From: an uncultured Draconibacterium sp.
Lineage (GTDB): Bacteria > Bacteroidota > Bacteroidia > Bacteroidales > Prolixibacteraceae
Direction: 5' to 3'
Assembly: GCF_963677155.1 (NCBI RefSeq)
Contig: NZ_OY781884.1
Location: 1,854,501 to 1,918,500 of the forward strand
DNA length: 64,000 nucleotides
The notes under the pieces are model-generated. The model made no database searches. It was not told the origin of the DNA and saw only the letters and a program-made list of their open reading frames with translations. This document shows, piece by piece, positions 7,727 through 42,957 of this stretch. Positions within the stretch are counted from its first letter, which is position 1; the number at the start of each line of letters is the position of its first letter. A program made the translations under genes and the position numbers.

Positions 7727-7728
7727 AG

Positions 7729-8983: not shown

Positions 8984-9035
8984 TACCGCTTATTCGCCAG
9001 AACCTACCGCTTATTTGCTAGAGCCAACCGCTTAT
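8984..9035 (+). promoter_or_regulatory. Three 21-bp iterons upstream of the LytTR regulator (candidate operator)
   Basis: The word (T/A)ACCGCTTAT occurs at 8984, 9005 and 9026, exactly 21 bases apart. The 11-base spacers are also alike, of the form TCGCCAGAACC. LytTR domains are known to bind pairs of short direct repeats spaced about two helical turns apart, so this fits an autoregulatory operator. An equal array lies after the kinase gene at 12789-12840. Confidence 0.75.
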
Positions 9036-9066
9036 ATAAAAACTAAATATTCTTTACAATTAATCC

Positions 9067-9074
9067 TATCTTTG
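9067..9074 (+). promoter_or_regulatory. -7 box for the LytTR two-component operon
   Basis: TATCTTTG matches TAnnTTTG exactly and lies 32 bases beyond the last iteron and only 6 bases before the ATG at 9081. No -33 TTTG is present, as would be expected for an activator-dependent promoter. The message would be nearly leaderless. Confidence 0.55.
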
Positions 9075-9080
9075 TTAGTA

Positions 9081-12781: not shown

Positions 12782-12788
12782 GGCAAAA

Positions 12789-12840
12789 AACCACTTATTC
12801 GCTAAAACCTACCGCTCATTCTCCAAAACCTACCGCTTAT
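12789..12840 (+). promoter_or_regulatory. Three 21-bp iterons downstream of the kinase (second candidate LytTR operator)
   Basis: Units begin at 12789, 12810 and 12831, again exactly 21 bases apart, with the words AACCACTTAT, TACCGCTCAT and TACCGCTTAT and near-identical spacers. The array starts eight bases after the kinase stop codon. Its spacing to the following -7-like box is 32 bases, against 31 in the upstream copy. Confidence 0.7.
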
Positions 12841-12872
12841 AAAATACCAAATTTTATTTCAAATCATTTGCG

Positions 12873-12880
12873 TAATATTG
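12873..12880 (+). promoter_or_regulatory. -7-like box for the candidate small RNA
   Basis: TAATATTG differs from TAnnTTTG at one position. It stands 32 bases past the third iteron, almost the same geometry as the promoter of the regulator gene. No -33 element is seen, so activation by the LytTR protein is inferred. Confidence 0.4.
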
Positions 12881-12885
12881 TATTC

Positions 12886-13116
12886 TAATTAAGAAATAGT
12901 TCTTTTATATAAAATATAAACAGGAATAAGAAGACACTATCTCCTCGCATTCGGTTCCTTGTTTATGCTTGATAGAAATACAAACACGGTGATATTAATT
13001 ACGCAAACGCAAACTGTCCTTCACTGTCCCTGAAAGCAAACTAATAGTTAAATCAAGTAAAAAAGAAACAAGGAATACTAAGCCAACCCGTTATCTCAAG
13101 GGTTGGCTTTTTTTTG
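12886..13116 (+). ncRNA. Candidate structured small RNA under LytTR control
   Basis: About 230 bases between the second iteron array and a strong terminator contain no credible protein gene. A perfect 10-bp long-range helix joins TTCCTTGTTT (12955-12964) to AAACAAGGAA (13066-13075), and a nested 6-bp helix joins CTTGAT (12968-12973) to ATCAAG (13052-13057). The enclosed loop has ACTGTCC twice in tandem (around 13013-13029), a possible base-pairing motif. A 22-codon open frame starts at 12965 but has no ribosome site. Ends are estimated from the -7 box and the terminator. No known RNA family was recognised. Confidence 0.45.
13081..13115 (+). terminator. Strong Rho-independent terminator
   Basis: A perfect 9-bp stem AGCCAACCC / GGGTTGGCT with a 10-base loop is followed by eight T residues. 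It closes the candidate small RNA and any read-through from the two-component operon. Confidence 0.9.
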
Positions 13117-13186
13117 CTTCCATTTCAAACTTTTAGCGTAACTATCGGTTTCACCTCCAACAGCAATCATATTTAGGTGCAAACAA

Positions 13187-13216
13187 TTTGTTTTAATACT
13201 AAATATGGTATTTTTA
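13187..13216 (+). promoter_or_regulatory. Candidate promoter of the acyl-CoA synthetase gene
   Basis: TTTG at 13187-13190 and TATTTTTA at 13209-13216 are 18 bases apart, one mismatch from the -33/-7 consensus. The ATG at 13242 follows 26 bases later. Confidence 0.4.
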
Positions 13217-13241
13217 GAAGTTAAATTTTAAATGGCTCGAA

Positions 13242-14882
13242 ATGCGTGATCAAACATTAGCAAAACTATTTACTACTGCTTTTCATGAAAATTGGGAAGA
13301 ACTCGCCTTCTCCGATTTTGAAGGAGAGGATTTCACTTACAAAGACATTGCCGGAACCATAAAATCGTTGCACCTGTTTTATCAACTTGCCGGCTTACAA
13401 CGCGGCGATAAGATTGCCGTTCTGGGAAGAAACTCATCGCAGTGGGCAGCCACTTTTATGTCGGCACTTTCTGCCGGGCTGGTAATTGTTCCTATTCTAC
13501 CCGATTTTAATAAGAGCGATACCAACCACATTATCAACCACTCCGAATCGAAACTGGTTATTGGCGCAACTGCTCTTTTGGAAAAGGTTGACCTGGAATT
13601 ATCGGAAAAACTGCAGGCAATAATTAAGCTCGAAGATTTTAGCTTATATGCCGCAAAAGATGAAAATATTCAATATAAACTCAACGACGGATTTCAATAC
13701 TACAAGGAAAACAGTTTAAGTAAAGAAGCTTTTGTTTTTGAAGAATGGGAATCCGAAGAGATATGCATTATCTCGTATACATCGGGCACCTCCGGTTTTA
13801 CAAAAGGAGTAATGATACCGGAGCGAAGCCTGCTATCGAACGTAATTTTTGCACAGGAACACATGCCTTTGGTCCCCGGAAATAAAATTGTTTCGTTTTT
13901 GCCAATGGCACACGTTTACGGCTTACTTTTCGAATTCTTATTCCCTGTTAGTAAAGGATGCCACATTACTTTCCTAAGCAAAATGCCTTCTCCTGCAGTT
14001 ATCACAAAAGCTTTTGGCGAGATAAAACCACACCTTATTTTATCGGTTCCGCTGGTTATTGAAAAGATTTACAAAAAACGTATTCTTCCGGCTATTGAAA
14101 AACCTTCGGTAAAGTTTATGCTGAAAGTACCAATCATTTCAACTATGATTCTGAAAAAGATCAGGACAAAAATGATTGAAACATTTGGCGGGCGATTCTT
14201 CGAAATTGTTATTGGCGGTGCACCATTAAGCTCCGACGTTGAAGCTTTTTTTAAACGCATAAATTTCCCGTTTACCATTGGTTATGGAATGACAGAATGT
14301 GGGCCACTGATTAGTTACGAAGCATGGGATAAAACAATGCCCTCGTCGGCCGGAACGCTTGTCGATCGCATGGAAGTTCGAATTGATTCGGAAGATCCGT
14401 ATAATGTGGTTGGCGAAATTCAGGTAAAAGGCGAAAATGTAATGCTGGGATATTACAAAAACGAAAAAGAAACAAAAGCCGTATTTACTGAAGACGGCTG
14501 GCTAAAAACCGGAGATCTGGGTGTAATCGATAAGAACAACTTCATTTACATTCGTGGACGATCGAAAAATATGTTGCTTGGCCCATCAGGACAAAATATA
14601 TATCCCGAAGAAATTGAAGCCAAACTTTGCAACCAAAGTTATATCGCCGAGTGCGTGGTTGTTGAGCGCGACCACAAACTGGTGGCATTGGTTTACCCCG
14701 ATTTTGAATCGATGAAAACAGATAATGTTGATGAAAAAGAACTTCCGGCAATAATGGCCGAAAACCAAAAGAAGGCCAACGCCGAGTTGCCACGTTACGA
14801 ACATGTTAGCCGCATTGAACTGGTTGACGAAGAGTTCGAAAAAACGCCAAAACGAAATATAAAACGTTACAAATACGTATAA
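13242..14882 (+). CDS. AMP-forming long-chain acyl-CoA synthetase-like protein
   Basis: A 546-residue ANL-superfamily enzyme expected to activate a fatty acid with ATP and join it to CoA. The P-loop-like motif ISYTSGTSGFTKGVM lies near residue 180, GYGMTECGP (A5 motif) near 345, and the hinge region TGDLGVIDKNNFIYIRGRSKNM near 425. The C-terminal Lys motif appears as EKTPKRNIKRYKYV. It is shorter than typical FadD15-like synthetases (about 600). It is transcribed alone and closed by a bidirectional terminator. Chain-length preference cannot be judged. Confidence 0.9.
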   Translation: MRDQTLAKLFTTAFHENWEELAFSDFEGEDFTYKDIAGTIKSLHLFYQLAGLQRGDKIAVLGRNSSQWAATFMSALSAGLVIVPILPDFNKSDTNHIINHSESKLVIGATALLEKVDLELSEKLQAIIKLEDFSLYAAKDENIQYKLNDGFQYYKENSLSKEAFVFEEWESEEICIISYTSGTSGFTKGVMIPERSLLSNVIFAQEHMPLVPGNKIVSFLPMAHVYGLLFEFLFPVSKGCHITFLSKMPSPAVITKAFGEIKPHLILSVPLVIEKIYKKRILPAIEKPSVKFMLKVPIISTMILKKIRTKMIETFGGRFFEIVIGGAPLSSDVEAFFKRINFPFTIGYGMTECGPLISYEAWDKTMPSSAGTLVDRMEVRIDSEDPYNVVGEIQVKGENVMLGYYKNEKETKAVFTEDGWLKTGDLGVIDKNNFIYIRGRSKNMLLGPSGQNIYPEEIEAKLCNQSYIAECVVVERDHKLVALVYPDFESMKTDNVDEKELPAIMAENQKKANAELPRYEHVSRIELVDEEFEKTPKRNIKRYKYV

Positions 14883-20815: not shown

Positions 20816-21736
20816 TTAATCCTGGTTTGCAGGAACACTCTGCAGGCTTTCCCCTGTTTCCGCATTCGCCTTATAATGCCGCTTTTTCCAGTGTTTTTTT
20901 AGTACTCCTGTATGCAAGTGTGCATCTGTTGGAAACATGAAGTCTACGCTGCGGTGAGGCCGTTTGTTGTTGTATTTGTACACCGCAACTTTTGTGGCTT
21001 CAAGCGCTTCCCGATAATCAGAAAATGTATGGTTTAAATCGTATTCGTCCTTTAAAATCCCATTAACCCTTTCGGCTATTGCATTTTCGTACGGATCGCC
21101 GTTTTCGGTCATCGAGATATTTATTTTCGAGCCCTTCAGAAAGTTCACATAGTCGTTACAACAGTATTGTATCCCCCGGTCAGAATGATGGATGAGACCT
21201 TGTTTCACTCCCTCGCCTGCAACTGCCATACGCAAGGCGTTTAATGCCCCTTCGCTGGTTAAATCGGGCCAGAGGCACCAGCCTACTATCTTCTTCGAAT
21301 AGGCATCGGTTACCAGTGAAAGGTAAACAAAGCCTTTTTCGGTGCGGATATAGGTAATGTCGCTCACCCATAAGCGCCCTGAGCTGAGTAGTTCTATCTC
21401 CCGGATCAGGTTGGAATATTTACGGTAAAAATGGTTCGAATTCGTGGTTTTAGGTCCTCTTCTTTTACGTTTTACCAATAAACCGTGTTCGCGCAAAAGG
21501 TAGTAGAATTTGTCACGTCCATATTTAATATTATGGTCCTGTAACTGCGGCGCTATCAAATGATGGAGCTTCTCGGCCCCCATGCGAGGGTGATCCCCAC
21601 GCAGCTCTTTTACCAATGTTAATATAAATACTTCCTGCATTTGAAGCCCCGACTGGCGCTTTTTGCTGTCGTACCAGGCCTGACGGCTAAACCCAAACAG
21701 TCCGCACAGTACCGCTTTGCTTGTTAGCGGGTACAT
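20816..21736 (-). CDS. IS3-family transposase OrfB (DDE integrase domain)
   Basis: A 306-residue catalytic part. An HTH_21 region (VKELRGDHPRMGAEKLHHLI) precedes the rve integrase core. The DDE triad can be read as Asp in RLWVSDITYIRTEKGF, Asp in GLIHHSDRGIQY, and Glu in ENAIAERVNGILKDEY. Its frame is open upstream without stops through the slippery site inside orfA, so the active enzyme is expected to be an OrfAB fusion made by -1 frameshifting; the ATG at 21736 may serve only for free OrfB. Confidence 0.93.
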   Translation of the reverse strand: MYPLTSKAVLCGLFGFSRQAWYDSKKRQSGLQMQEVFILTLVKELRGDHPRMGAEKLHHLIAPQLQDHNIKYGRDKFYYLLREHGLLVKRKRRGPKTTNSNHFYRKYSNLIREIELLSSGRLWVSDITYIRTEKGFVYLSLVTDAYSKKIVGWCLWPDLTSEGALNALRMAVAGEGVKQGLIHHSDRGIQYCCNDYVNFLKGSKINISMTENGDPYENAIAERVNGILKDEYDLNHTFSDYREALEATKVAVYKYNNKRPHRSVDFMFPTDAHLHTGVLKKHWKKRHYKANAETGESLQSVPANQD

Positions 21737-21750
21737 GTGCGTTAGTACAC

Positions 21751-22155
21751 CTACTGCTTGGGGCCAGACTTTTTTCTGATCTCGAGTTTGTAGTCGTTCT
21801 CGGCAATGTCGATCATGGTGTTCAGCGCAACGTTTTTCATTTGCGCCAGTTCCAGCTGCTTCTCCAGCTCTTTGATGCGTTTTTCCAAGGCCTTGTTATC
21901 TGCTCTTTCTTTTGAACTCATAGACTGCAAAGATAAGTGGATTTCGTCGGAATATTTGACTTGCCAGTGCTTGTACGTCTTATCAAATCGATGTGGTAAA
22001 TTAAATTTTTCACGAGCTTCAGTCACACTCATCCGTCCGGAATCAAGTTCGGCTATTAACCAACGCCGAAAACTGGTCTCGTAATTACTGTAATCTACTT
22101 TTTTCTGATTAAAACCTTCCATATTATCCGAAAGGTTAGTGCTGATTTTTTTCAT
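21751..22155 (-). CDS. IS3-family transposase OrfA (HTH protein)
   Basis: A 134-residue protein with a helix-turn-helix region (RRWLIAELDSGRMSVTEAREKFNLP) and a C-terminal coiled coil or leucine zipper (ADNKALEKRIKELEKQLELAQ) used for dimerisation. It binds the terminal repeats. The slippery heptamer lies 6 codons before its stop. Confidence 0.9.
   Translation of the reverse strand: MKKISTNLSDNMEGFNQKKVDYSNYETSFRRWLIAELDSGRMSVTEAREKFNLPHRFDKTYKHWQVKYSDEIHLSLQSMSSKERADNKALEKRIKELEKQLELAQMKNVALNTMIDIAENDYKLEIRKKSGPKQ
21769..21775 (-). other. Programmed -1 frameshift site A_AAA_AAG
   Basis: On the minus strand the orfA frame reads AGA AAA AAG, which contains the canonical slippery heptamer A AAA AAG. 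The -1 frame then runs open into orfB (AAA AAA GTC TGG CCC and onward) with no stop before the ATG of orfB. This is the standard IS3 strategy to make the OrfAB transposase. Confidence 0.85.
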
Positions 22156-23170: not shown

Positions 23171-23497
23171 ATGAAAATAATATTATTAGTTCTTGGACTT
23201 ATCATTATTTGGTTCATTCGTCAGTATATAAAAGCAAAGTCACATAAAATAGACACCGACGCTTTTTTAGAAAATGTAATTAAATACAAGGTTGTCGAAA
23301 AATATGGAGATGGACTAAAGTGGGCATTATACTTATATACAAACAAAGGAAATGAACAATGGAATGAAACGATTCCTGGTAGTTTTGCTGCTCGCGATGC
23401 AGACAAAGGTGATTTGACGATGGTTTTTCATTCTTATGAATCAGCAAGGGATTATGCTGCAAATTACTTTGTAAACGCAACACAAATTGAAGACTAA
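23171..23497 (+). CDS. Unknown membrane-anchored small protein
   Basis: A 108-residue protein with one N-terminal membrane helix (MKIILLVLGLIIIWFIRQYI) and a soluble C-terminal domain containing KYKVVEKYGDGLKWALYLYT and a conserved-looking FHSYESARDYAANYF. I do not recognise the family. It ends seven bases before the left REP-like palindrome. Confidence 0.7.
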   Translation: MKIILLVLGLIIIWFIRQYIKAKSHKIDTDAFLENVIKYKVVEKYGDGLKWALYLYTNKGNEQWNETIPGSFAARDADKGDLTMVFHSYESARDYAANYFVNATQIED

Positions 23498-23503
23498 TTC
23501 TCG

Positions 23504-23529
23504 CCCTGCCCCTCGTTTGCAACGAGGGG
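23504..23529 (+). repeat. REP-like palindrome, left of the RAYT gene
   Basis: CCCTG followed by a perfect 9-bp hairpin CCCCTCGTT-tgc-AACGAGGGG. An inverted copy with one change flanks the gene on the other side (24163-24188). Confidence 0.75.
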
Positions 23530-23579
23530 CTCGCATTCAGTCGATTGTATCGACATTTATCTTTACCTTTAAAACAAAA

Positions 23580-24131
23580 ATGCCCGCAGACAATTATTTC
23601 ATCTCCGACCAAAACGCAAGCTACTTTTTAACATTTACTGTTGTTAACTGGCTTGATGTGTTTACAAGAAAAGAATATAAAATCGCAGTTGTTGATTCGC
23701 TCAATTACTGCATAAAAAACAAAGGCTTAACTGTTTTTGCCTGGTGTTTAATGTCGAATCATTTACATCTGGTATGTCGTGCTAAGGAAAGAAATAGTAT
23801 TAGTGCAATAGTTCGCGATTTTAAAAAGTTTACCTCTAAAGCTATTGTGAAAATGATTCAGGAAATACCGGAAAGCAGGAGAGATTGGTTGCTGTATCAT
23901 TTTGAATCTGCCGGGAAGTTTGACAACCGGATTCAGCACTTTAAATTTTGGCAGGAGACAAATCATGCAGTGCTGCTGGACACTTCAGAAAAGATTGATC
24001 AGCGCATAAACTATACACATGAGAATCCGGTTAAGGCCTTGATTGTCGCTCAGGCGCATGAATATTTGTTCAGCTCGGCCATTGATTATTCAGGGACGAA
24101 AGGCTTGGTGGATGTTGAAACTGATGTTTAG
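23580..24131 (+). CDS. RAYT: REP-associated tyrosine transposase (Y1/IS200-like)
   Basis: A 183-residue protein. The ATG at 23580 is chosen because the upstream extension from 23487 would read through the REP palindrome. Hallmarks of the Y1 transposase clan: HUH-like metal motif as SNHLHLV near residue 60, start motif YFLTFTVVNWLDVFTRKEY, and the Tyr-containing helix QRINYTHENPVKALIV near the end. RAYTs are domesticated single-strand transposases that act on REP hairpins; the inverted pair of palindromes around this gene fits that. It stands alone. Confidence 0.88.
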   Translation: MPADNYFISDQNASYFLTFTVVNWLDVFTRKEYKIAVVDSLNYCIKNKGLTVFAWCLMSNHLHLVCRAKERNSISAIVRDFKKFTSKAIVKMIQEIPESRRDWLLYHFESAGKFDNRIQHFKFWQETNHAVLLDTSEKIDQRINYTHENPVKALIVAQAHEYLFSSAIDYSGTKGLVDVETDV

Positions 24132-24162
24132 CATGATGTCGTTACAAACGACAAGAAGCTTA

Positions 24163-24188
24163 CCCCTCGTTGCAAACAAGGGGCAGGG
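24163..24188 (-). repeat. REP-like palindrome, right of the RAYT gene
   Basis: Read on the minus strand it is CCCTG + CCCCTTGTT-tgc-AACGAGGGG, identical to the left copy except for one base that makes a G-T pair. A further perfect hairpin GTCGTT-aca-AACGAC lies at 24138-24152, just after the RAYT stop. Confidence 0.75.
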
Positions 24189-24206
24189 AAAGCCCAAAAA
24201 CAGCGA

Positions 24207-24235
24207 TGCCCTCACTCCGACTCAGAGTAAGGGCA
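24207..24235 (-). terminator. Probable terminator of the RND/ABC export cluster
   Basis: A 9-of-10-bp stem TGCCCTTACT / AGTGAGGGCA on the minus strand, followed a few bases later by five T residues. It lies 20 bases beyond the stop of the last gene of the cluster. Confidence 0.55.
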
Positions 24236-24254
24236 CCACCTCTATTCTTATTGC

Positions 24255-24983: not shown

Positions 24984-27900
24984 TTAAACAAAGTCTTTTA
25001 ACAAACACAAATAAGCATCCTCGAGATTTGGCAATACACTAACCGCATCGGGTGCGGGCTTTTCTTTCGCCAAACAACGCATCTTAATATTTTCGCCATC
25101 GCGCATATGGTGAACAATCATTTGTTTATTGGCCATACTATCAAATTCCTTAGCCGGAACAGAGAACTGCCAAACAAAATTATTACCCATATTCACCATG
25201 TCGTTTGGTGTTCCGAAATACTTCAGGTTACCACGGTTAATTACCGCTACCTGGTTACACGAGCTCGAAATATCCTCGATAATGTGGGTAGAGAAAATAA
25301 CAATCCGCTCGCGGCTCAGCTCTACCAGCAAGTTCCGGAAACGAATACGTTCCCGTGGATCAAGACCGGCAGTAGGCTCGTCAACCACCAAAATGCGTGG
25401 CAGATTCAGCAAAATTTGTGCAATACCAATACGTTGTTTCATCCCTCCCGAGAAGGCACCGATTTTATCTGTGCGGCGCTCCCACATATGAACACTTTTA
25501 AGTACATATTCCAAGCGGTCTTCGCGTGTTTTGGTATCTTTTATTCCTTTCAGAATAGCTTGGTAATCGAGGAACTCCCAGGCCGACATATTTTCGTAAG
25601 TACCAAAGGCCTGTGGCAAATAACCGATCAAACCCTGCAACTCCTCGCGGTATTTTTGGGTATCCATTCCGTTAATCCATATCTTTCCGTAACTCTGTTC
25701 GAGCACACCGGTAATAATCCGCATCATGGTTGATTTACCGGCACCGTTCGGTCCAAGTAAACCAAACATACCTGTTTTAATCTCCAACGAAACACCGTTC
25801 AATGCACGGAAAGGTTTCTTGCGTTTTCCGATAACCGGAATTTGGCGAACCATGTTAAAGTAACCACGACGCAGCACTCCAAAACGTCCTTCAATACGGG
25901 CAATATTTACCTCTTTATTGTGAATGTACTCTGCGGTTGCGTAGAAAACCAGCAAAATATACCAGATAATTGCAATGAAAATCACCATGCCCAGATTATC
26001 CCAGTCTTTATAGAAATAGAGAAGGAAAACAAGCGGTACAATCCAGAATATCAGGTTATAGATCCACTTATTCAGTTTAAGGTAAAAAGTTTTGCCTGTT
26101 GCTTCATGCTTATTAATCAGCACCTGGTTTAGCGGCACCCTTAATAAGAAAAGGAAGAAGAAAACTCCATGCGATAGCACCCACATCCAAACATGGCTTT
26201 CGATGTAGAAGAAAGTGAAGTAAGCCACAAAAATAAACAGCGGTATTTGCCAAACGAGATCTGAAAAATCGCGCAGATGTTTATAATCTTTCGTCAGCCC
26301 GGCACGTTCGCGAATTCTTAACCCCGATTTCCACTCGCGCACAAAACGCGAATCGCGGTCGTAAATTTTCACCAACCTTCTTACTTTTATTCTTATCGGT
26401 TCGTTCTCATCCACAACTTTCTCACTGGCCTGTCGCAAACTGGTCATTGTAAAGGCCACAACACCCGGCACCAAAACAATCAACAATATAAAATCAAGCA
26501 GTTGCCAAACAAAGCTATCCACTTTCAGGTAGATAAGAACGGCTCCGATGATAAACACTGTTAACATGCCGATTTTTAAGCCTAGATGTAACGACTTAAT
26601 CCAGTCGAGAGCAGTTTCCATTCCGGCATATAATGTTGGAATAAAAACCAATGTAAGCAGTGTACTTAACGCCAAACCGCCAATTACAGTAATGGCAAAC
26701 GGCGCTCCAATGGCACCAACATATTCGGCTTGCCCCATTGCCAGCGGGAATAATGCGACAATGGTAGTAATGGCTGTAATTAATATTGGGCGAACACGCG
26801 AAAGTCCTGCGGCCATCAAGGCACGCGATTTTCGGTAGCCCCGCTTTCGGAGAATGTTGGTATAATCAATTAAAATAATTCCGTTGTTCACCACCACTCC
26901 AATCAGGATAATAAAGCCCATCAATGTGTTAGCGTTAAACAAGCTGTTTCCTGTAAAAATCAGTGCCAGAAATGATCCAATGGCAGCGAGGGGAATAGAG
27001 AAAATCAGTACAAACGGCGTTGATACCGATTCGAAAACCGATGCCAGAATCATTAAAATAAGTATAAATGCAGCAGCAATCAGAAACTTAAATTCGGAAT
27101 ACTGATCCTCTTCGTGTATAACCTCCACAGCAACTCCCGAAGGTAATTTATAAGCACCAATTATATCATCAATTTCAAGTCGATAAGCTTCCAGCAGATC
27201 TTTCGAGTCGCTGGCTTCGTCAACAAAACTGTAGGTTAACTCAATCTGCTTTTCCTGATTAACACGGGTAATGCTGGCCATTCCTTCGGCATAAACCATA
27301 TCGGCCAGTTCGTCCATATCGTAAGTAGCCCCCTGGTTATTGCTTACCTGAAGTCGACGAAGATCTTCAATCCCTTTTGTATTATCCTCTTCTTCAACTC
27401 CATCGGGTAATTTTTCCTTTATTACGATTTCATATTCATCCGTTCCCTGCTTAAAATTCACACCCGAGGTAAACTGGCTTGTAAATGTTCCTAACTCCGA
27501 TGTTATATTCTGAAGTGTAATTCCATATTCAGTCAACAACATCTGATTGAAATACATGTGCACTTCCGGTCGGTTGTTTGCCACGCTAATATTTGCCCGA
27601 CTAATTGTTTCAAGGTCTTCGATGTAGTAAAGCAAGTCTTCAGCCACACCTTTCATCACTTCAAAATTTTCACCTTTTATTACAACACGTTCCTGATCTG
27701 AGCCAATTCCCATAAATTGCTGAAATCCCTGCATACCTGAAAGGCCACCGCCGCCACCGCCACCACGGAACCGCGCACTCGACATAGGCGCCTGAAGTCC
27801 TACTTCTCCCTGCGAAACATTACGAAGACGATCTTCCACATCTTTTTTGATTTCGGCAATGGTACGGTCATCAATATCTTTGTAATCATCGCGTAGTATG

Positions 27901-29708
27901 AATGTCAGAATTGCCTCTTCGGCCTCGATATTGGCCGACAGATCCTGCTTTTCAGCAATGTCTTCCAGTCGACTTTCCACATCGGAAACTACTTTGTCTG
28001 TTGCTTCCAGTGTTGTACCGGTTGGCATGGTAACGTAAATATTGAATTCCTCTTCATCAACCTCCTGCAGGTTGGTAACACTAATTGCCAACACAATAAA
28101 TACGGTTAAGAAGAAGAACACCAAAGCACCAATAATAGTACGCGCAGGAACACGCATACTGGCTTTTAGCAGCAGAATGTAAATTTGTACAATACGGTTA
28201 TTGGTGGTTACTTTTTCGTAAAACACATTATGTTCCCGCTTTTTACGTAACAACACGTGGGCGGCCATTGGAATGAGCAGTAAAGCCACAAATAACGAAA
28301 CAATGAGTGTGGAAATAATAGAAACTCCTACGTGATTCCCCAGCAGTTTTACCATGTAATCGGAAGCGAAAACAAAAGGCAAAAATACGGTTACAGTAGT
28401 AAGCGTTGCCGCTACAATCGAACGCCAAACCTCTTTCGTACCCTGGGTTACCGATTGCTCGGGACTCATTTTATTCCCCGAGAGCCGGTAAATATTTTCG
28501 AGCACCACAATACTATTGTCGAGCAGCATACCAATGGCCAAAACAAGACCAACCAGCGTTAAACTGTTCAGCGAAATATTGAAAGCGTAAAACAGGTTGA
28601 ATGCGGTAAATACCGAAATTGGAATGGCCAGTGCAATAAATGAAACAATGCGCAGATTTTTCAGGAACATCCAAAGTACAAAAATGGCCAGAAAACCTCC
28701 AACCAGCGCCAGATCAATAATCTGATCGATGTTTTTCTCCATGGTTTCTGCCTGGTTGGTCTGAACCACAATTTCGACATCTTTAGCTGCCAGCTTTTTG
28801 TTTAATTCCGCAATCTCTTCCTGTACGTTATGCGACAGTTCGATAAGATTGGCCTGCGAATCGCTAACCAAGCTCATCGAAACCGCATCCAATCCGTTTA
28901 TACGACTAATCGATGTTTCTTCTTTTACGCCAAAAAATACATCGGCAACATCTTTTAAATAAATTGGGCCATCGGCCACAACTATATTTTCGATATCTGA
29001 AACTTTATCGTATTCGGCAGTAACATGCACAAAATATTGTTTCTGCGCATCGTGCAGGTAACCAGTAAAAGTTCGGTTGGTAGAATTGCCCGAAATAGCA
29101 CTCCGAATTTGTGCCGGTGTAATTCCGTAGGCCTCACAGGCACCTGCATCGTAAGTTACTTCAATCGAACGCTCTTTACCACCGAAAACCGACACAGAAG
29201 CCACCCCATCGATATTTTCCATTTGGGAGGTAACTTCCTGATCAACGATATTTCGAACGCGATCAACTCCTCCGCTACCACGTATTTGCAACTCCATAAA
29301 CTGATTGGAAAGCTGATCCAGATCAACACGGTTAACCGTTACAATAAAGTTATCATCTAGCTCGCCAGCAATCAGATCAATCTTCTCCTGTAGTTTCAGG
29401 AAAGTGTATTTAAAGTTGACGTTCTGTTTAAAATTTACCTGTATGGATGCCGAGCGGTTATTAATAGACGACTCCATATCCTCAATACCTTCCATGGTAC
29501 CGATCGCTCCTTCAACCGGAATAACGGCCTGATTTTCCAGATAGGTTGGATCCACTTCAATCCGCGACTGGATCTGAACATACAGCATCGGGAGCTCGGC
29601 ATTTGGCATAAGTTCCACCGGCAACTGTTTGTAAGAGATGTAACCCAACATGGTTAATCCCAGAAACAGCATACTGATGAATATTTTTCTGTTGATAATG
29701 AATTTCAT
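24984..29708 (-). CDS. RND efflux permease fused to an ABC ATPase
   Basis: A single 1574-residue frame with no internal stop. Residues 1-1030 are a full HAE-type RND pump: porter domains and 12 membrane segments, with TM4 motif GMLLDNSIVVLENIYR. The AcrB Asp pair is Asp-Asn and the AcrB Lys940 position reads VVNNGIIL. Residues 1031-1290 add about six membrane segments and a basic cytosolic loop. Residues 1295-1574 form a complete ABC ATPase: Walker A GLLGPNGAGKST (Lys1325), signature FSGGMKQR, Walker B ILVVDEPTAGLDP, H-loop FSTHI. The ATPase resembles the free one at 39322-40215 (shared RERIRFRNLL and DISSSC-type stretches), so it probably arose by duplication. A GxxExxY cassette precedes it. 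Confidence 0.95.
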   Translation of the reverse strand: MKFIINRKIFISMLFLGLTMLGYISYKQLPVELMPNAELPMLYVQIQSRIEVDPTYLENQAVIPVEGAIGTMEGIEDMESSINNRSASIQVNFKQNVNFKYTFLKLQEKIDLIAGELDDNFIVTVNRVDLDQLSNQFMELQIRGSGGVDRVRNIVDQEVTSQMENIDGVASVSVFGGKERSIEVTYDAGACEAYGITPAQIRSAISGNSTNRTFTGYLHDAQKQYFVHVTAEYDKVSDIENIVVADGPIYLKDVADVFFGVKEETSISRINGLDAVSMSLVSDSQANLIELSHNVQEEIAELNKKLAAKDVEIVVQTNQAETMEKNIDQIIDLALVGGFLAIFVLWMFLKNLRIVSFIALAIPISVFTAFNLFYAFNISLNSLTLVGLVLAIGMLLDNSIVVLENIYRLSGNKMSPEQSVTQGTKEVWRSIVAATLTTVTVFLPFVFASDYMVKLLGNHVGVSIISTLIVSLFVALLLIPMAAHVLLRKKREHNVFYEKVTTNNRIVQIYILLLKASMRVPARTIIGALVFFFLTVFIVLAISVTNLQEVDEEEFNIYVTMPTGTTLEATDKVVSDVESRLEDIAEKQDLSANIEAEEAILTFILRDDYKDIDDRTIAEIKKDVEDRLRNVSQGEVGLQAPMSSARFRGGGGGGGLSGMQGFQQFMGIGSDQERVVIKGENFEVMKGVAEDLLYYIEDLETISRANISVANNRPEVHMYFNQMLLTEYGITLQNITSELGTFTSQFTSGVNFKQGTDEYEIVIKEKLPDGVEEEDNTKGIEDLRRLQVSNNQGATYDMDELADMVYAEGMASITRVNQEKQIELTYSFVDEASDSKDLLEAYRLEIDDIIGAYKLPSGVAVEVIHEEDQYSEFKFLIAAAFILILMILASVFESVSTPFVLIFSIPLAAIGSFLALIFTGNSLFNANTLMGFIILIGVVVNNGIILIDYTNILRKRGYRKSRALMAAGLSRVRPILITAITTIVALFPLAMGQAEYVGAIGAPFAITVIGGLALSTLLTLVFIPTLYAGMETALDWIKSLHLGLKIGMLTVFIIGAVLIYLKVDSFVWQLLDFILLIVLVPGVVAFTMTSLRQASEKVVDENEPIRIKVRRLVKIYDRDSRFVREWKSGLRIRERAGLTKDYKHLRDFSDLVWQIPLFIFVAYFTFFYIESHVWMWVLSHGVFFFLFLLRVPLNQVLINKHEATGKTFYLKLNKWIYNLIFWIVPLVFLLYFYKDWDNLGMVIFIAIIWYILLVFYATAEYIHNKEVNIARIEGRFGVLRRGYFNMVRQIPVIGKRKKPFRALNGVSLEIKTGMFGLLGPNGAGKSTMMRIITGVLEQSYGKIWINGMDTQKYREELQGLIGYLPQAFGTYENMSAWEFLDYQAILKGIKDTKTREDRLEYVLKSVHMWERRTDKIGAFSGGMKQRIGIAQILLNLPRILVVDEPTAGLDPRERIRFRNLLVELSRERIVIFSTHIIEDISSSCNQVAVINRGNLKYFGTPNDMVNMGNNFVWQFSVPAKEFDSMANKQMIVHHMRDGENIKMRCLAKEKPAPDAVSVLPNLEDAYLCLLKDFV

Positions 29709-29722: not shown

Positions 29723-30179
29723 GAACGCTGATGACACTGATTTTACAGATTATCGCAGAATTTGATTTGTGAATACTTTTATTTTCACTTGCGGCTTTTT
29801 ACCAAAATTTAATAATAATCCTACTTCAACATCAGTTGCTTTTAAATAATTTATCAGTTGAAACTCATGTGCTTCTGTAACAGTTTCGGTTGCTTTTAAT
29901 TCAAGAATCACGACATCCTCAACAATAATATCTGCATAATATTCTCCAACCACATCTCCCTGATAACTTACTTTTATTGGCTTCTGCGATTCAACTTTCA
30001 ACTCCTCATTTTGCAATTCTATTAAAAGTGCATTGTGATAAACCTTTTCCAGAAAACCATATCCCAATTCATTGTAAACCTTGTAGAAGCATTTAATTAT
30101 TGCTTCGGTTAAATCAGAATATTTGTAATCTATTTGCATCTATCAGCGAGTTTCAGCTAAATCAACGTCATCTGTGTTC
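29723..30179 (-). mobile_element. GxxExxY cassette with imperfect terminal inverted repeats (copy 2)
   Basis: A 457-bp unit. Arms at 29723-29759 and 30143-30179 are inverted repeats matching at 26 of 37 positions; each is a degenerate run of a 9-base word near CTGATGACA. The outer edge of one arm overlaps the TAG stop of the upstream RND gene, and the other arm overlaps the stop of the GxxExxY gene. Size and layout equal copy 1 at 5036-5479 although the repeat word differs. It splits two RND genes of one operon without breaking either. Confidence 0.6.
29750..30139 (-). CDS. GxxExxY family protein (PD-(D/E)xK-like), second copy
   Basis: A 129-residue protein with GFLEKVY as the GxxExxY motif and DIIVEDVVILELKA as the nuclease-like core. 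A basic tail (KKPQVKIKVFTNQILR) ends it, as in the first copy (KRKINGYF). No signal peptide. It lies between the RND gene at 30179-33271 and the RND-ABC fusion, is co-directional with both, and starts just inside the right arm of the cassette. Function unknown. Confidence 0.88.
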   Translation of the reverse strand: MQIDYKYSDLTEAIIKCFYKVYNELGYGFLEKVYHNALLIELQNEELKVESQKPIKVSYQGDVVGEYYADIIVEDVVILELKATETVTEAHEFQLINYLKATDVEVGLLLNFGKKPQVKIKVFTNQILR

Positions 30180-33301: not shown

Positions 33302-34360
33302 CTATAAAATCACTTTTACTTTTGAATTATCGCGGAGTGTTTCAAAACCTTTTATAATCAAACGATCGTTCGCGCTGAGGCCTTCAGTAACTTCAATTTC
33401 ATCCTGGTTTGCAATACCTGTTGTGATACGACGATCGCTGGCAGCACTGTTTCGCCCAACAATAAATACATATTTCCCGCGCGAGCCAGTCATTATAACG
33501 TCTTTCGGGATAACAATAGCACTGTCTTTTTGTGCCGTAATAATGTTGGCTTTTATAAACATTCCCGGACGTAGTTTTAGCTCCGGATTATCAATTTCGA
33601 GCTTACCTGCAAATGTGCGTGTTTCGTCGCTGATTACTGGAGATAACTCCGCAACATGACCGACAAGTGTATCTTCAGCAAGCGTATAGTTTGTAATCAT
33701 TACTTCCTGCCCGGTAGTTACTTCCGAGATGTTTTTCTCCGGCAAGTTGATCTCCACATACATTTTTTTGTAGTTCATCAGACTAACCATGCTTTCGCCG
33801 GCCGACACACGAACGCCCTGAGTGTAATAAGGCAACGCAACAATAACTCCTGAAAAAGGAGCTACAACCTTCGTTTTTGCCAACTGTATCTCAGCACTTT
33901 CATAGTTATTCTTTGCTGAAATCATCGAAACTTCCGAGTTACGCATTTCAAGCAGTGTAACACCACCTTTTTCGTACAACGATTTTTGTTTTTCGTATTC
34001 CTGTTCCGAAATTTCAAGGTTCAATTTTGTCGACTCAATATTCAGTCCGTTCAGGTACTCTGCATTTTCCAGTTTTACAATAACCTGACCTTTTTCAACG
34101 CGGTCGCCCAGTTGAAATTTACGTCCCGTTCTTGGGTTGGTTTGCAAAATATAATTTCCTTCAATTTCAGAACTCAATTCGGTTTCGTCTACGGCTTTTG
34201 CGCTTCCGGTAGTACTTACAAATTGCTGAATACTCTTAAGTTTTATGTTTTCAACTGAGACAGGAACGGCTAACTCAGTTGATTGAGAACCAGTTTGGTT
34301 GTTACACGAAATGGCGGCAACAACAACGCCTAACAGGATAAGTAATTTTATATGCTTCAT
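33302..34360 (-). CDS. RND periplasmic adaptor (membrane fusion protein), lipoprotein
   Basis: A 352-residue adaptor. The ATG ending at 34360 is chosen since it gives a proper lipoprotein signal MKHIKLLILLGVVVAAISC with Cys19. The order barrel-sandwich / alpha-hairpin / beta-barrel is visible: biotinyl-like halves around GDRVEKGQVIVKLEN and VVAPFSGVIVALPYYTQGVRVSAGE, a coiled-coil hairpin between them (LEISEQEYEKQKSLYEKGG...), and a membrane-proximal domain near the end. It links the RND pumps to the TolC protein encoded just upstream. Confidence 0.94.
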   Translation of the reverse strand: MKHIKLLILLGVVVAAISCNNQTGSQSTELAVPVSVENIKLKSIQQFVSTTGSAKAVDETELSSEIEGNYILQTNPRTGRKFQLGDRVEKGQVIVKLENAEYLNGLNIESTKLNLEISEQEYEKQKSLYEKGGVTLLEMRNSEVSMISAKNNYESAEIQLAKTKVVAPFSGVIVALPYYTQGVRVSAGESMVSLMNYKKMYVEINLPEKNISEVTTGQEVMITNYTLAEDTLVGHVAELSPVISDETRTFAGKLEIDNPELKLRPGMFIKANIITAQKDSAIVIPKDVIMTGSRGKYVFIVGRNSAASDRRITTGIANQDEIEVTEGLSANDRLIIKGFETLRDNSKVKVIL

Positions 34361-34382
34361 TTTGGTATAATTTTCAGATTTA

Positions 34383-35876
34383 TTATTGACCATCGGTTAC
34401 GTACAACTCCTCAGGAATAATAGCTTCGTTTTTTTCAAAATCGAACAACGACTGTATTTTAAGGTTTAACAATTCAAGTTTATAATTTATAAGCGCCTGA
34501 CTCAGGGCAACTTTTTGCGACGAAAGCTGATTTTGATACAGATTTAAGTCCATACCTGTAAGGTCGCCGTTTTCGTAACGTTCCAGGTTAATTTCGTAGG
34601 TCAACTGGGCATTGCGCTCATTTTGTTTTGCCAATTCAATCTGGTTCAACTGGTTTTGAATGTTACGGTAAACCTGGCGAATATCAACAACAATTTGTTT
34701 TTTCTCCTCGCTTAGGTTCAGCTCCTGCGATTCGATGGCTGCTTCGGCGGCAGCAATTCGTGCTTTGCGCTCGCCCCAATCGAAAATTGGAATATTGAAG
34801 CTAATTCCTACCGACGGGCTTTTTGTTGGATTTTGGTAAATGTTACCCAAATCATTGTTATCGCCAGTGATACCAAAACGCAGGTTCATATCTCCTCTGA
34901 ATTCATTCTGAGCTTTGGTACGGATAAGATCAAACTGACTGGTTTCCACATCAATCTCGCGCTGACGCAATTCCATTCTCGATTCCAAACCATTTTCGAT
35001 GGCTTTGTCCAAATCAACAGGAACCGGGTTTGCACTAACATCGGCCAGAATCATTACATCTTCAAAAAGATCCATACCGAGATACAGTTTCAACTGATCT
35101 TTAGCATTCTCAAAAGCCACCTCGTTGTTTTGCAAAGTAGATTTTGCCGTAGCCAGGTTTAACTCGGCCTGGTATTCTTCTTCTTTTGCAGCCAAACCGG
35201 CTTCAACCTTATTTTTTATAATGTCGTAACTTTTTTGCGTGTTAGCCAGCTCATCTTTTGCAATCGTTAAATTCATTTGCGCCATATAAACCTTGTAGAA
35301 AAATTCGGTTACATTTCGCTCGAGATTTAAGTATTGCATGGCGTAGCTGATACGTGCATTTTCGAAGTTCAATTCCAACTCTTTAAGTTGCAGCTTTAAG
35401 GTATTATGCGTAAATAATGGCTGACTCAGGTTCAAATACAGGTTATTAAAGAATACCTCATTGTCGGTAAGCGCCGAAGTAGAACTATTACTCGACCATC
35501 CAAACTCGTTGGTTAACGAGATAGTACCATCGGTTATTAAAATTGGTTGAGCAACCGTAAATAATGTACTTGTTTCAAAGTTTTCGTTGGTATACCACTC
35601 CGAAACACGATTATCAAAACGACGTTGTTTACTGTAGTTTACCGGATCAACCTGAAGTGAAAAGCGTGACTTCAAAGCCGCACGCTGTGCCTCCAGATTT
35701 TTTTGGTAGCGCTCAAGGTTTAATAATGACAGCTTCAAATCAGGGCTTCCGGTTTCGGCAATACTCAAAGCTCTTTCGAGGGTTAAAGCCTCCTGTGCCT
35801 GAACAGCAAAAGTAGCAGTCGCCAGAAAAAACAATGCAATTGCCAGCTTTCGCATAAGTTTGATTTTTGTTTTCAT
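34383..35876 (-). CDS. TolC-family outer-membrane efflux protein
   Basis: A 497-residue protein with signal peptide (ATATFAVQA) and two OEP repeats of long coiled helices, for example LQLKELELNFENARISYAMQYLNLERN and KAQNEFRGDMNLRFGITGD, ending in a helix ALINYKLELLNLKIQSLFDFE. It forms the outer-membrane channel and tunnel of the tripartite system. A second in-frame Met (MRKLAIAL) lies 7 codons in and would also give a good signal. It precedes the adaptor gene by 22 bases. Confidence 0.94.
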   Translation of the reverse strand: MKTKIKLMRKLAIALFFLATATFAVQAQEALTLERALSIAETGSPDLKLSLLNLERYQKNLEAQRAALKSRFSLQVDPVNYSKQRRFDNRVSEWYTNENFETSTLFTVAQPILITDGTISLTNEFGWSSNSSTSALTDNEVFFNNLYLNLSQPLFTHNTLKLQLKELELNFENARISYAMQYLNLERNVTEFFYKVYMAQMNLTIAKDELANTQKSYDIIKNKVEAGLAAKEEEYQAELNLATAKSTLQNNEVAFENAKDQLKLYLGMDLFEDVMILADVSANPVPVDLDKAIENGLESRMELRQREIDVETSQFDLIRTKAQNEFRGDMNLRFGITGDNNDLGNIYQNPTKSPSVGISFNIPIFDWGERKARIAAAEAAIESQELNLSEEKKQIVVDIRQVYRNIQNQLNQIELAKQNERNAQLTYEINLERYENGDLTGMDLNLYQNQLSSQKVALSQALINYKLELLNLKIQSLFDFEKNEAIIPEELYVTDGQ

Positions 35877-40401: not shown

Positions 40402-40432
40402 CAAAAAAAGCCCTGCAAAACCTTGCAAAGCT
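40402..40432 (-). terminator. Weak terminator after the first of three secreted paralogues
   Basis: On the minus strand AGC...TTGCA / TGCAA...GCT forms an imperfect stem, followed by TTTTTTTG. It lies 67 bases past the stop codon at 40499. Confidence 0.45.
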
Positions 40433-40498: not shown

Positions 40499-41080
40499 TT
40501 ATAATTTTAGCGTATATCTATGATCTCTTACACAATCGCTTAACACAACTTCATAGATACCTCTTTGCAAATAACTAAAATCCAGGCGGGTTTGAATACT
40601 TACATCGCGGCCAAGGTTCGACCCATCAATATATTTTCCGTTTTGATATATACTTACATTAACCGGCTTGTTCCAGGTATTTAAAAACGATAGATTTACC
40701 ATTTTTCCTTTCACCTTATAATACGGTTCGTAACAAAAAGAGGCATTGCTTACTGTAATTTTCTTATCCTCTACCCTTAATACACGATTTATACTCTGAT
40801 TGCCGTAATTTATACTTACACAATACACACCATCACCCAACTCCGAAAAATTAAACATCTTTTTGTAGGCTGCCAGATGTTCCGTCTCCTTATAATAGAG
40901 CAATTCTCCGTTGAAATTGGTAAGGCTTACCTTCAAAGGTGTTTCGCGAGAAAAACTATAGGCAAGCATTACCGTGTTTTCTTTAACCTGAATAATATTC
41001 ATTTTGGGTAACTCAATGGCACTTGCTGCTCCTGCAACAAAAAATACCAGGACTATCATAGCCCAAACGTTTGTTTTCAT
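40499..41080 (-). CDS. Secreted two-domain beta protein, paralogue 1
   Basis: A 193-residue protein with signal peptide MKTNVWAMIVLVFFVAGAASA. Two beta domains: the first (about 22-100) has PLKVSLTNFNGELLYYKETE and FNFSELGDGVYCVSI; the second (about 105-193) has PVNVSIYQNGKYI and LDFSYLQRGIYEVVLSD. The layout equals the two neighbours but identity is much lower. Upstream, CAAAGACA at 41116 and TAAA at 41145 (minus-strand -7/-33, 21 apart) each miss the consensus by one base. Function unknown. Confidence 0.82.
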   Translation of the reverse strand: MKTNVWAMIVLVFFVAGAASAIELPKMNIIQVKENTVMLAYSFSRETPLKVSLTNFNGELLYYKETEHLAAYKKMFNFSELGDGVYCVSINYGNQSINRVLRVEDKKITVSNASFCYEPYYKVKGKMVNLSFLNTWNKPVNVSIYQNGKYIDGSNLGRDVSIQTRLDFSYLQRGIYEVVLSDCVRDHRYTLKL

Positions 41081-41248
41081 GACTTTTCATTTAATTGTTT
41101 CCTACTTAATAGACACAAAGACAACCCCCTACGTTACACTTCCTTAAAGATTGTAAACCAACAGCCTTCTAACGTCGACTAACGCAAAAAAACCGGCTTA
41201 AACAACCGGTTCGAACAATTACAATTTGGGATGAACGAAAAAACGGAT

Positions 41249-41285
41249 AAAAAAAAAGGCCATCAGTTAATTGCTGACAGCCTTA
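41249..41285 (-). terminator. Terminator after secreted paralogue 2
   Basis: Stem AAGGC..TCAG / CTGA..GCCTT with a 2-base internal mismatch, followed on the minus strand by a run of T residues. About 25 bases after the stop at 41309. Confidence 0.65.
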
Positions 41286-41308
41286 CCTAAATCAATAACA
41301 TTTTCTGA

Positions 41309-41893
41309 CTATTTTTCTAAACTAAACGCAAATTCATTATTGTAAGAACTCAATATCACTTCGTATTTTCCATCTCTCAATGCTGAAAGATCATATCCGG
41401 AAGCGACATTAAAATCTTTACCCAAATCAGACTGGTAAACCAAACCTTTTTCGTCGTAAATATTTAAGCTAAGTCTTTCCTCATCAAAATTCAGATAAGT
41501 AAGTTTTAATACGTCATCAGCAAATGCGAAGTAAGGATCGATTCTTAATTTAGACTCGCCCACAAAAATTCCATTTGATGCTACCTGAACATCTTTAATT
41601 AAACGAGTATCGTTTACACGGAGATCCATAGTGTATTTTCCGTTTTCAAGATTTTTGAAATCATAAATCTTTTGATAGGAATTCATTGGCTTTGTTGTGT
41701 GTTTGTAATAAATCAACTCACCATTCTCAGACTGAATGCTCAACTCGAACAACGATGCATTTTCATTCATAATTGTCACTACCGCCTTGTCGTCTGACAA
41801 CGGAGTTACACTCATTTTCGGTTTCTCAACGGCTGTCGCAACTGCTACAACTGCAACTGCCAATACTGTAAATAATAATTTAATTGTTTTCAT
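41309..41893 (-). CDS. Secreted two-domain beta protein, paralogue 2
   Basis: A 194-residue protein; the ATG ending at 41893 is preferred over one two codons upstream because the paralogue at 42957 starts the same way (MKTIKLLFTVLAVAVVAVATA). Two beta domains with ASLFELSIQSENGELIYYK / IYDFKNLENGKYTMDL and LSLNIYDEKGLVYQSDLG / YDLSALRDGKYEVILSS. It is about 70 percent alike to the next gene by eye. It has its own promoter (41931-41963) and terminator, so it is a single-gene unit. Export, small size and strong promoters suggest an abundant envelope protein; no function is known. Confidence 0.85.
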   Translation of the reverse strand: MKTIKLLFTVLAVAVVAVATAVEKPKMSVTPLSDDKAVVTIMNENASLFELSIQSENGELIYYKHTTKPMNSYQKIYDFKNLENGKYTMDLRVNDTRLIKDVQVASNGIFVGESKLRIDPYFAFADDVLKLTYLNFDEERLSLNIYDEKGLVYQSDLGKDFNVASGYDLSALRDGKYEVILSSYNNEFAFSLEK

Positions 41894-41930
41894 AACCATT
41901 CGTTTTTTAGTTTAACATTGAATGACAGTA

Positions 41931-41963
41931 CAAATATATATGTTTTACAGCATACATGTCAAA
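41931..41963 (-). promoter_or_regulatory. -33/-7 promoter of secreted paralogue 2
   Basis: On the minus strand TTTG (41963-41960) and TATATTTG (41938-41931) are 21 bases apart, a full match to the Bacteroidota promoter. The 50-base region is nearly the same as that of paralogue 3. Confidence 0.8.
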
Positions 41964-42318
41964 CAACATATTAAAAAAATTAAACAATCGCACTATATTT
42001 AACATTACAGTTAACATTAAGAGTATTAATATCGTCTTAACACACTAAATATCAAGTATTACAAAAATGAATTTCCAAAATAACAATTTTCATGCCAAAC
42101 CAATCATACATATATTAAATATATTTTAGCTTATTCTCAAATAACGGTTAAGCCCGCAATTCAAACACCCCACTATCTTTATTCACAAAACCAAAACCCA
42201 GACTACCCCACTTCAAAAAACCTTATCACACTTTTCACACCAACAAGACAAGAAACACCCAACTAACCAAAAAAAATCCGGCAAACACCGGACTCCAAAC
42301 AAACAAGTACAACAAAAA

Positions 42319-42351
42319 GAAAGGCTGTCGGAAAATTCCGACAGCCTTTCT
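42319..42351 (-). terminator. Strong terminator after secreted paralogue 3
   Basis: A long perfect stem (GAAAGGCTGTCGGA / TCCGACAGCCTTTC) with a 4-base loop, followed on the minus strand by T-rich sequence. About 20 bases past the stop at 42373. Confidence 0.9.
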
Positions 42352-42372
42352 AAACCAATAACATTTTCTAAT

Positions 42373-42957
42373 CTATTTTTCTAAACTAAACGAAAAATCA
42401 TTACTCATTGAAGCCAAAACCACCTCATATTTTCCAGCAGCCAAAGCAGTAAGATCAAAACCTTTTGCAATATTAAAATCCTGACCCAATTTCGACGCAT
42501 AAACCAAACCGTTTTCATCGTAAATATTCAAACTCAGTTTTTCCTGGTCAAAATTCAAATAGGTAAGCTTTAACACATTATCTGAAAACCCAAAATAAGG
42601 ATCTACTCTCATTTTCGATTCACCCACCGCAATACCTTTTGAAGAAACACTAAAATCTTTAGTCAATCGTGTATCATTTACACGAAGATCTAAAGTATAA
42701 TCTCCATCTTCAATATTTTTAAAATCAAAAATTTTCTGATAAGTAAGAGACGGACTCGCTGCCTGCTTATAATATACCAACTCTCCATCTTCAGAGCGAA
42801 CACTCAATTCAAATAAAGCCTCGGCTCCATTAAGAATAGAAACAACTGCTCTATCTTCCGACAAAGGCACGATATCCATTTTGGGTTTCTCAACGGCTGT
42901 TGCAACCACTACAATTGCTAATGCCAATACTGTTGTAAAAAATTTAACTGTTTTCAT
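42373..42957 (-). CDS. Secreted two-domain beta protein, paralogue 3
   Basis: A 194-residue protein with signal peptide MKTVKFFTTVLALAIVVVATA. Domain pattern and length match paralogue 2 closely: ALFELSVRSEDGELVYYKQ / IFDFKNIEDGDYTLDL and LSLNIYDENGLVYASKLG / FDLTALAAGKYEVVLAS. The pair arose by recent tandem duplication that also copied the promoter. The gene is flanked by a strong promoter (42998-43030) and a strong terminator. Function unknown. Confidence 0.85.
   Translation of the reverse strand: MKTVKFFTTVLALAIVVVATAVEKPKMDIVPLSEDRAVVSILNGAEALFELSVRSEDGELVYYKQAASPSLTYQKIFDFKNIEDGDYTLDLRVNDTRLTKDFSVSSKGIAVGESKMRVDPYFGFSDNVLKLTYLNFDQEKLSLNIYDENGLVYASKLGQDFNIAKGFDLTALAAGKYEVVLASMSNDFSFSLEK

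Follow-up and report, generated by a model that had tools for sequence, protein, structure and literature searches.

RND and ABC exporters are conventionally presented as distinct superfamilies that use different fuels, RND pumps being normally driven by protons. Tripartite pumps of the MdtABC (HAE1) kind consist of two RND subunits, an adaptor and a TolC-type channel, and in MacAB-TolC an ABC ATPase energises the adaptor-TolC exit. The closest precedent described for the locus presented here is MmpL7-DrrABC, in which the RND protein MmpL7 and the type V ABC transporter DrrABC export PDIM in mycobacteria and in which loss of any drr gene is reported to abolish this export (PMC11539658, PMC8427324). 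The same reports name TM_1403 as the closest relative of DrrA of known structure (PMC11539658, PMC8427324), and one of them describes MmpL7 as having no canonical proton relay (PMC8427324). A dual-energy precedent is provided by the carrier ArsB, which is reported to run on the proton force alone or together with an ATPase (PMC13381914); a laboratory-built ArsA-ArsB chimera appears in the reference list of that paper (PMC13381914).

Here we investigate a gene that encodes an RND permease and an ABC ATPase in one chain, located in a stretch of DNA of 64,000 nucleotides (the window, in which all positions are given). A full-text literature search, with most subscription literature and the domain-architecture databases outside its scope, returned no description of an RND-ABC fusion. 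The parts are known, and their covalent union, the split ATPase domain and the operon seem to be undescribed within the literature searched.

The fusion gene and its distribution

The original prediction of a single gene, a frame of 1574 codons without stop or frameshift, holds, and the gene can now be assigned to the minus strand, on which the prediction was silent (Table 1). Its first 1030 residues form the proposed HAE-type RND permease (Pfam ACR_tran, 1.1e-168), with a full-length match covering positions 3-1018 of the 1021 in profile PF00873. Glycine runs are present in the porter part of the fusion (about residues 649-655) and in the permease ABCM1 of the same operon. Of the "about six" extra membrane segments expected after the permease, six helices were recovered by both the AF2 model and hydropathy, and the picture had to be extended by a beta strand (1107-1116) that also lies inside this domain. 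A Pfam search of the membrane domain yielded no family, only matches at chance level. The remaining part is, as claimed, an ABC ATPase with intact motifs (ABC_tran 1303-1447, 1.4e-27), including the Walker A sequence GPNGAGKST with Lys1325, the FSGGM signature, the Walker B pair Asp1443-Glu1444 and His1475. By fold, TM_1403 was the top Foldseek match of the model of residues 1031-1574, and NosDFY chains were also among the matches of the ATPase part; by sequence, ABCA4 was the best ATPase among the PDB matches listed for the fusion.

Table 1. Coordinates of the fusion gene, its parts and the surrounding features in the window
Feature	Position	Strand	Remark
RND-ABC fusion gene	24984..29708	-	1574 aa (stop included)
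Complete HAE-type RND permease, fusion residues 1-1030	26619..29708	-	ACR_tran 2-1028, Asp397 kept
Predicted six-helix membrane domain, fusion residues 1031-1298	25815..26618	-	two helices, beta strand, four helices
Predicted first beta strand and A-loop (Tyr1116) of the nucleotide-binding domain, fusion residues 1107-1116	26361..26390	-	inside the membrane domain
Remainder of the ABC nucleotide-binding domain, fusion residues 1299-1574	24987..25814	-	
Walker A, fusion residues 1319-1327	25728..25754	-	
PERM2, small predicted ABC-2-like permease, 240 aa	24255..24977	-	next gene downstream of the fusion
Terminator-like hairpin after PERM2, 18 pairs then T run	24202..24240	-	likely operon end
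GxxExxY (PDDEXK_3) protein between RND1 and the fusion	29750..30139	-	local insertion
RND1, second, unfused RND permease, 1030 aa	30179..33271	-	
Periplasmic adaptor (MFP)	33302..34393	-	
TolC-family outer-membrane channel	34383..35876	-	
ABCM1, ABC-2 permease with M1-peptidase-like domain without HEXXH and Golvesin_C, 1115 aa	35964..39311	-	
ABC1, free ABC ATPase, 297 aa	39322..40215	-	paralogue of the fused ATPase domain
Terminator-like hairpin upstream of ABC1	40409..40432	-	likely upstream boundary

An assembly error, or the absence of homologues from other genomes, had been named in advance as what could overturn the fusion. Neither was found. The same single frame occurs across many independent assemblies, single-contig genomes among them, and the genome of the window is itself one contig of 5.27 Mb. 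All seven partial matches checked stop just short of where their contig does, at a distance of 2 to 15 bases. No support for an assembly or annotation artefact joining two genes was found, and we regard this explanation as refuted; the fusion is genuine and conserved.

Within its own GTDB family, 126 of 140 genomes match the fusion at E<=1e-250 (own genome counted), as do 98 of the 103 high-quality genomes. The family matches run from residue 1-3 to 1569 or beyond in 113 of the 126 cases and are partial in 13. At the level of the order, 54 of 393 sampled genomes match at E<=1e-140, representing 33 of 206 genera, and a class-wide sample gave 5 matches in 395 genomes, of which two (one genus) lie outside the order. 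Carriers in the named collection include Draconibacterium, Mariniphaga, Maribellus, Prolixibacter, Sunxiuqinia, Marinifilum and Carboxylicivirga, and the fusion is also found in Bacteroides faecis, B. faecichinchillae, Parabacteroides massiliensis, Marivirga sericea and Flavilitoribacter nigricans. The closest named relative among the fetched loci is that of Draconibacterium mangrovi (97% identical). None of 72,556 plasmid records matched the fusion at E<=1e-100.

The original prediction had proposed to map the taxa of proteins that hold ACR_tran and ABC_tran in one chain; the fusion was traced to Bacteroidota and to genomes of the Calditrichota and Latescibacterota phyla. With a profile of the membrane domain, 9 of 40 genomes matched in the phylum of the Calditrichota locus L107, six of them in frames of 1540-1683 aa and three in shorter frames (606, 730 and 1295 aa). 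In the phylum of the Latescibacterota locus L117, 2 of 16 genomes matched, both diverged: the copy in L117, with 33% identity and a profile E of 9.1e-19, fills a 4.3-kb contig with a single open frame of 1443 codons, and the second copy, cut by the contig start, runs from the end of the RND part through the membrane domain into the ATPase and is followed by a relative of PERM2 (24% identical). Broken frames were seen in two MAG copies, with an in-frame stop in L107 (9941-14701) and two ORFs in different frames in L102 (2097-7174). In a tree built by a quick method with midpoint rooting, the non-Bacteroidota MAG loci L087, L088 and L107 nest within Bacteroidota, and transfer or contamination is therefore possible for these three. 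Three of the Calditrichota-phylum copies sit on contigs of 82-259 kb, which argues that they are real.

The same profile was used to look for an unfused ancestor in 395 genomes of the phylum, and none was found among them: seven genomes match, six of them in frames of 1561-1640 aa. The match in genome G742 is short, contains stops and was taken as chance. RND-only relatives among the fetched loci, many from Firmicutes, are about 25-31% identical to the fusion. A further candidate, L137, was rejected as a fusion since the search had joined RND and ABC hits that belong to separate genes there; in this Deltaproteobacteria MAG (6385-13741) an adaptor, an RND protein, a second adaptor and an ABC ATPase adjoin as separate genes of a different module.

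The surrounding operon and its permeases

The fusion is the sixth gene of a seven-gene module in the order ABC1, ABCM1, TolC, adaptor, RND1, fusion and PERM2. Its conservation was assessed in 80 fetched loci, 42 of which hold the fusion as a single frame of more than 1500 aa, the others being contig-cut, interrupted or RND-only. PERM2 directly follows the fusion in all 42 single-frame loci, and in all 36 of them that extend 9 kb or more upstream, ABCM1, TolC, MFP and RND1 stand in the same order. ABC1 is present in 33 of these 36; in the remaining three, the fetched sequence ends no more than 460 bases from the start of ABCM1. ABCM1 is in pieces at L081, L084, L097 and L099, and TolC at L084. 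RND1 and the fusion are often separated by only a few bases or overlap, and long contigs of three Calditrichota-phylum genomes show the same gene order in their visible part. The GxxExxY insertion of the window was found elsewhere only in L071 (Draconibacterium) among the loci compared, and its gene is therefore placed outside the conserved module.

An RND1 orthologue (E<=1e-260) occurs in 49 of 386 genomes of the order sample, and all 49 also hold the fusion, so that RND1 was not found without it in this sample. In the 38 genomes tested for adjacency, RND1 lies immediately upstream of the fusion every time. Five of the 54 fusion genomes gave no RND1 match at this threshold (G150, G243, G399, G418 and G472); the draws of the order made for the fusion and for RND1 differed (393 and 386 genomes), and in these five RND1 may be absent, off the contig or, in four of them, outside the second draw.

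Terminator-like hairpins likely delimit the operon at both ends, in a region that holds 38 such sites against 17.2 expected. Among 19 regions compared, the genes just upstream of ABC1 are found again only in L206, L209 and L211, all of the same genus. Upstream of the operon, 40499-42957 encodes three proteins in a row (193-196 aa) that match Por_Secre_tail/DUF3244 weakly and that, among the regions compared, are shared only within the genus. Just past its other end, a REP-associated tyrosine transposase (23487-24240, plus strand) sits beside hairpins at 24240-24202 and 24185-24161, where a REP element possibly doubles as the operon terminator. Further away, at 20816-22155, an integrase-core protein and a small upstream ORF, both on the minus strand, look like an IS3-like insertion element.

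Two further proteins of the module resemble ABC permeases. The fold of PERM2 is predicted to be ABC-2-like: its AF2 model (pLDDT 91.2, pTM 0.87) opens with an elbow-like helix, places a short helix between TM2 and TM3 and contains six TM in total, and its best fold matches are NosDFY, PmtCD and ABCG chains, all weak (best E 0.047, TM-score about 0.5-0.6). Only 3 of 41 PERM2 members reach the Pfam family ABC2_membrane_3, and weakly, and a profile match between PERM2 and the ABCM1 permease is colinear and below significance. No homology was seen between the fusion's membrane domain and either PERM2 or the permease of ABCM1. The N-terminus of ABCM1 matches ABC2_membrane_2 in 15 of 28 cases. HEXXH, the zinc motif of M1 aminopeptidases, is absent from the M1-like part in 34 of 35 ABCM1 proteins tested, including that of the window; the exception is no more than a pattern match, HESLH in the L107 sequence.

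Conserved residues and layout of the ATPase domain

To assess whether both engines are intact, we compared 100 fusion sequences, a redundant set that includes the copy of the window. Walker A, Q-loop, SGGM signature, Walker B Glu and H-loop are present in 100/100, the catalytic residues checked are kept throughout and the signature always reads (F/Y)SGGM. Conservative changes occur at motif positions 1326, 1363, 1419, 1439, 1441 and 1476, and the other motif positions are invariant. In the RND half, residues were assigned by alignment to the AcrB positions Lys940 and D407. This reproduces the reported Asp-Asn pair (Asp397-Asn398) and the Asn at the Lys940 position (Asn941). More specifically, Asp397 (the D407 position in TM4) and Arg973 are found in 100/100 sequences, position 398 is Asn in 90 and T, S or C in 10, and position 941 is Asn in all, so that the second Asp and the TM10 Lys of the AcrB type are absent. 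The unfused RND1 shows the same pattern, with Asp in 45/45, the following Asn in 44/45 and Asn at the Lys position in 43/45. The pattern hence looks like a trait of the subgroup, and the caution that it proves no switch of fuel was well placed. With the catalytic residues and Asp397 kept in every sequence, neither engine looks dead, and the conserved residues are compatible with the dual-energy or ATP-gated exporter originally suggested.

The ATPase domain itself appears to be split by four membrane helices, as judged from the structural model and from conservation. In ABC1, the ATPase opens with 'I.I..LNK.Y....AL..' and continues without interruption to Walker A. In the fusion, the segment before Walker A starts only at 'PFRALNGVSLEI' (1299), and the matching 'I.I.NLVKIYD' lies at 1107-1117, about 190 residues earlier, with four membrane helices in between. 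Structure prediction, recommended for residues 1000-1574 and run on 1031-1574 with 81 sequences (pLDDT 86.8, pTM 0.70), gave six helices, one strand and the ATPase domain. The model begins with helices at residues 12-32 and 36-65; then come the strand at 77-86 (fusion 1107-1116), another helix at 91-105 and four long ones, and finally the ATPase. This ten-residue strand is the only one before model residue 270 (fusion 1300); as DSSP assigns a strand only when it is paired, its partner should lie inside the ATPase domain. The predicted nucleotide-binding domain is accordingly not contiguous, with strand and A-loop modelled at 1107-1116 and the rest from 1299.

Conservation points in the same direction. 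I1107, K1114 and Y1116 are invariant in 81/81 sequences, in a membrane domain whose columns average 47% identity. A matrix built from 18 ABC1 N-termini (19 of 37 ABC1 pieces carried no motif, being cut, short or divergent in Walker A, and the gathering pattern was shaped on sequences already seen) placed its best site in the 1107 region in 60 of 63 rows, with a mean best score of 14.1 versus 0.1 for the next best; among 6300 shuffles, the 99th percentile was surpassed by 52 of 63 rows and the highest score by 26. The row of the window itself is unremarkable, scoring 5.6 at 1106 and 6.2, 6.1 and 5.6 elsewhere in the protein. At the strand site, the two sequences from the Latescibacterota phylum are GIRIRNLTKIYG and GIRISNLTKVYG, a usual start for such an ATPase.

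The origin of the fused domain was addressed with a tree of 43 domains, in which 20 further ATPases from this genome, most but not all of its matches, served as comparison. The 12 fusion and 11 ABC1 domains form sister groups whose union is supported at 100/99. The fused domain is therefore probably a duplicate of the operon's own ATPase that predates the divergence of the lineages sampled. The presence of a pair of paralogous ATPases and a pair of ABC-2-like permeases in each operon suggests a single asymmetric ABC transporter; since both ATPases appear competent, a heterodimer and homodimers are equally possible.

A proposed hybrid exporter and its known counterparts

We propose, with a probability of about one half, that the fusion is the anchor subunit of a seven-gene hybrid RND/ABC exporter in which an ABC transporter is tethered to an RND-adaptor-TolC exit. 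RND1, the RND half of the fusion, the adaptor and TolC would make up the envelope-spanning exit, the two RND parts perhaps as a mixed trimer in the manner of MdtBC. ABC1 and the fused ATPase domain would join ABCM1 and PERM2 in a two-by-two, Drr-like type V ABC transporter, which the six-helix domain would tie physically to the RND part. ATP hydrolysis would most likely flip or extract a substrate that, by analogy, is most likely of an amphiphilic or lipid-like class and would then be handed over to the exit; the RND part, keeping one proton-carrier Asp, may add proton drive. As the strand with A-loop Tyr1116 is predicted before the four helices and the rest of the domain after them, the nucleotide state could be coupled directly to the RND-attached helices. 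Because the ATPase has a paralogue in ABC1 and PERM2 follows in 42/42 loci, its likeliest job is to power the tethered ABC transporter and not the RND permease itself.

More tentatively, and at less than even odds, the design can be read in a stronger sense. One polypeptide would place ATP hydrolysis and proton flow on a single export path, as a natural hybrid of primary and secondary transport. Its ATPase would be threaded through the membrane, with four helices separating the A-loop strand from the Walker A half, and nucleotide binding would move helices wired to the RND trimer in an RND-adaptor-TolC-ABC supercomplex. This design would be old and common to at least Bacteroidota, Calditrichota and Latescibacterota.

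The ATPases of adjacent fusion protomers might instead pair and drive the RND cycle directly, with PERM2 and ABC1-ABCM1 as accessories. The single chain, the membrane helices that in the model enclose the first strand of the ATPase and the absence of AcrB's second Asp and relay Lys in 100/100 sequences (N/T/S/C at 398, N at 941) fit such an ATP-driven RND pump. However, Asp397 is kept in 100/100, the unfused RND1 has the same residue pattern, which is thus not tied to the ATPase, and an ABC-2-like permease comes next in 42/42 loci; we consider direct drive unlikely. Improbable, too, is a pair of independent pumps, an RND tripartite and an ABC transporter that handle separate substrates and are merely co-localised, with neither energetic nor substrate coupling. 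Either module looks complete by sequence, but an ATPase split around four helices and the conservation of the whole operon exceed the needs of a loose tether, and none of the 49 RND1 genomes in the order sample is without the fusion. The least likely of these, and very doubtful in our view, is that the ABC module does not transport at all and acts as a flux sensor or regulator of the RND pump, modelled on ABC flux sensing in Bce-type resistance modules. The large M1-like and Golvesin_C part of ABCM1 could bind a ligand for this purpose, yet across the 19 regions compared no gene immediately next to the module was seen to recur beyond the genus, and the upstream neighbours tested in the window are no regulators by Pfam.

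A fusion shared by several phyla, in the same seven-gene operon wherever the flank is readable, suggests that cells build RND and ABC parts as one machine. An ATPase domain interrupted by membrane helices would, if true, be an unusual layout for a member of one of the largest superfamilies of proteins. Furthermore, the fusion offers a tractable, non-mycobacterial system for the question of how RND and type V ABC transporters cooperate, as raised by MmpL7-DrrABC. Since the operon occurs in cultured species (Bacteroides faecis, Parabacteroides massiliensis and Draconibacterium mangrovi), genetics should be feasible.

Among the known systems, ArsAB differs in its parts, its carrier and ATPase belonging to unrelated families and forming separate subunits (PMC13381914). 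MacAB-TolC likewise combines an ABC ATPase with an adaptor-TolC exit; unlike it, the present operon encodes RND permeases and ABC-2-like permeases, and MacB_PCD/FtsX domains were not found by Pfam in its proteins. With MdtABC the operon shares an adaptor, two RND permeases and a TolC-type channel. It differs in that one RND permease carries six extra helices and an ATPase, in its two additional ABC-2-like permeases and second ATPase, and in the residues Asp-Asn and Asn, in contrast to Asp-Asp and Lys there. The type V transporters NosDFY, PmtCD and ABCG are alike as fold matches of PERM2, NosDFY also of the ATPase part; to our knowledge, they have a continuous ATPase domain and no RND component.

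MmpL7-DrrABC comes closest; that system is not known to include an adaptor or TolC. Its RND and ABC components are separate proteins, in contrast to the covalent fusion here; MmpL7 lacks the proton relay of which the fusion's RND half keeps one Asp; and DrrA is not described as split. The likenesses are an RND protein and a Drr-like ABC exporter that serve one path, both types being present in our operon, together with the SGGM signature, two different permeases and TM_1403, which is both the structural relative of DrrA and the top match of the fusion's modelled C-terminal half (1031-1574).
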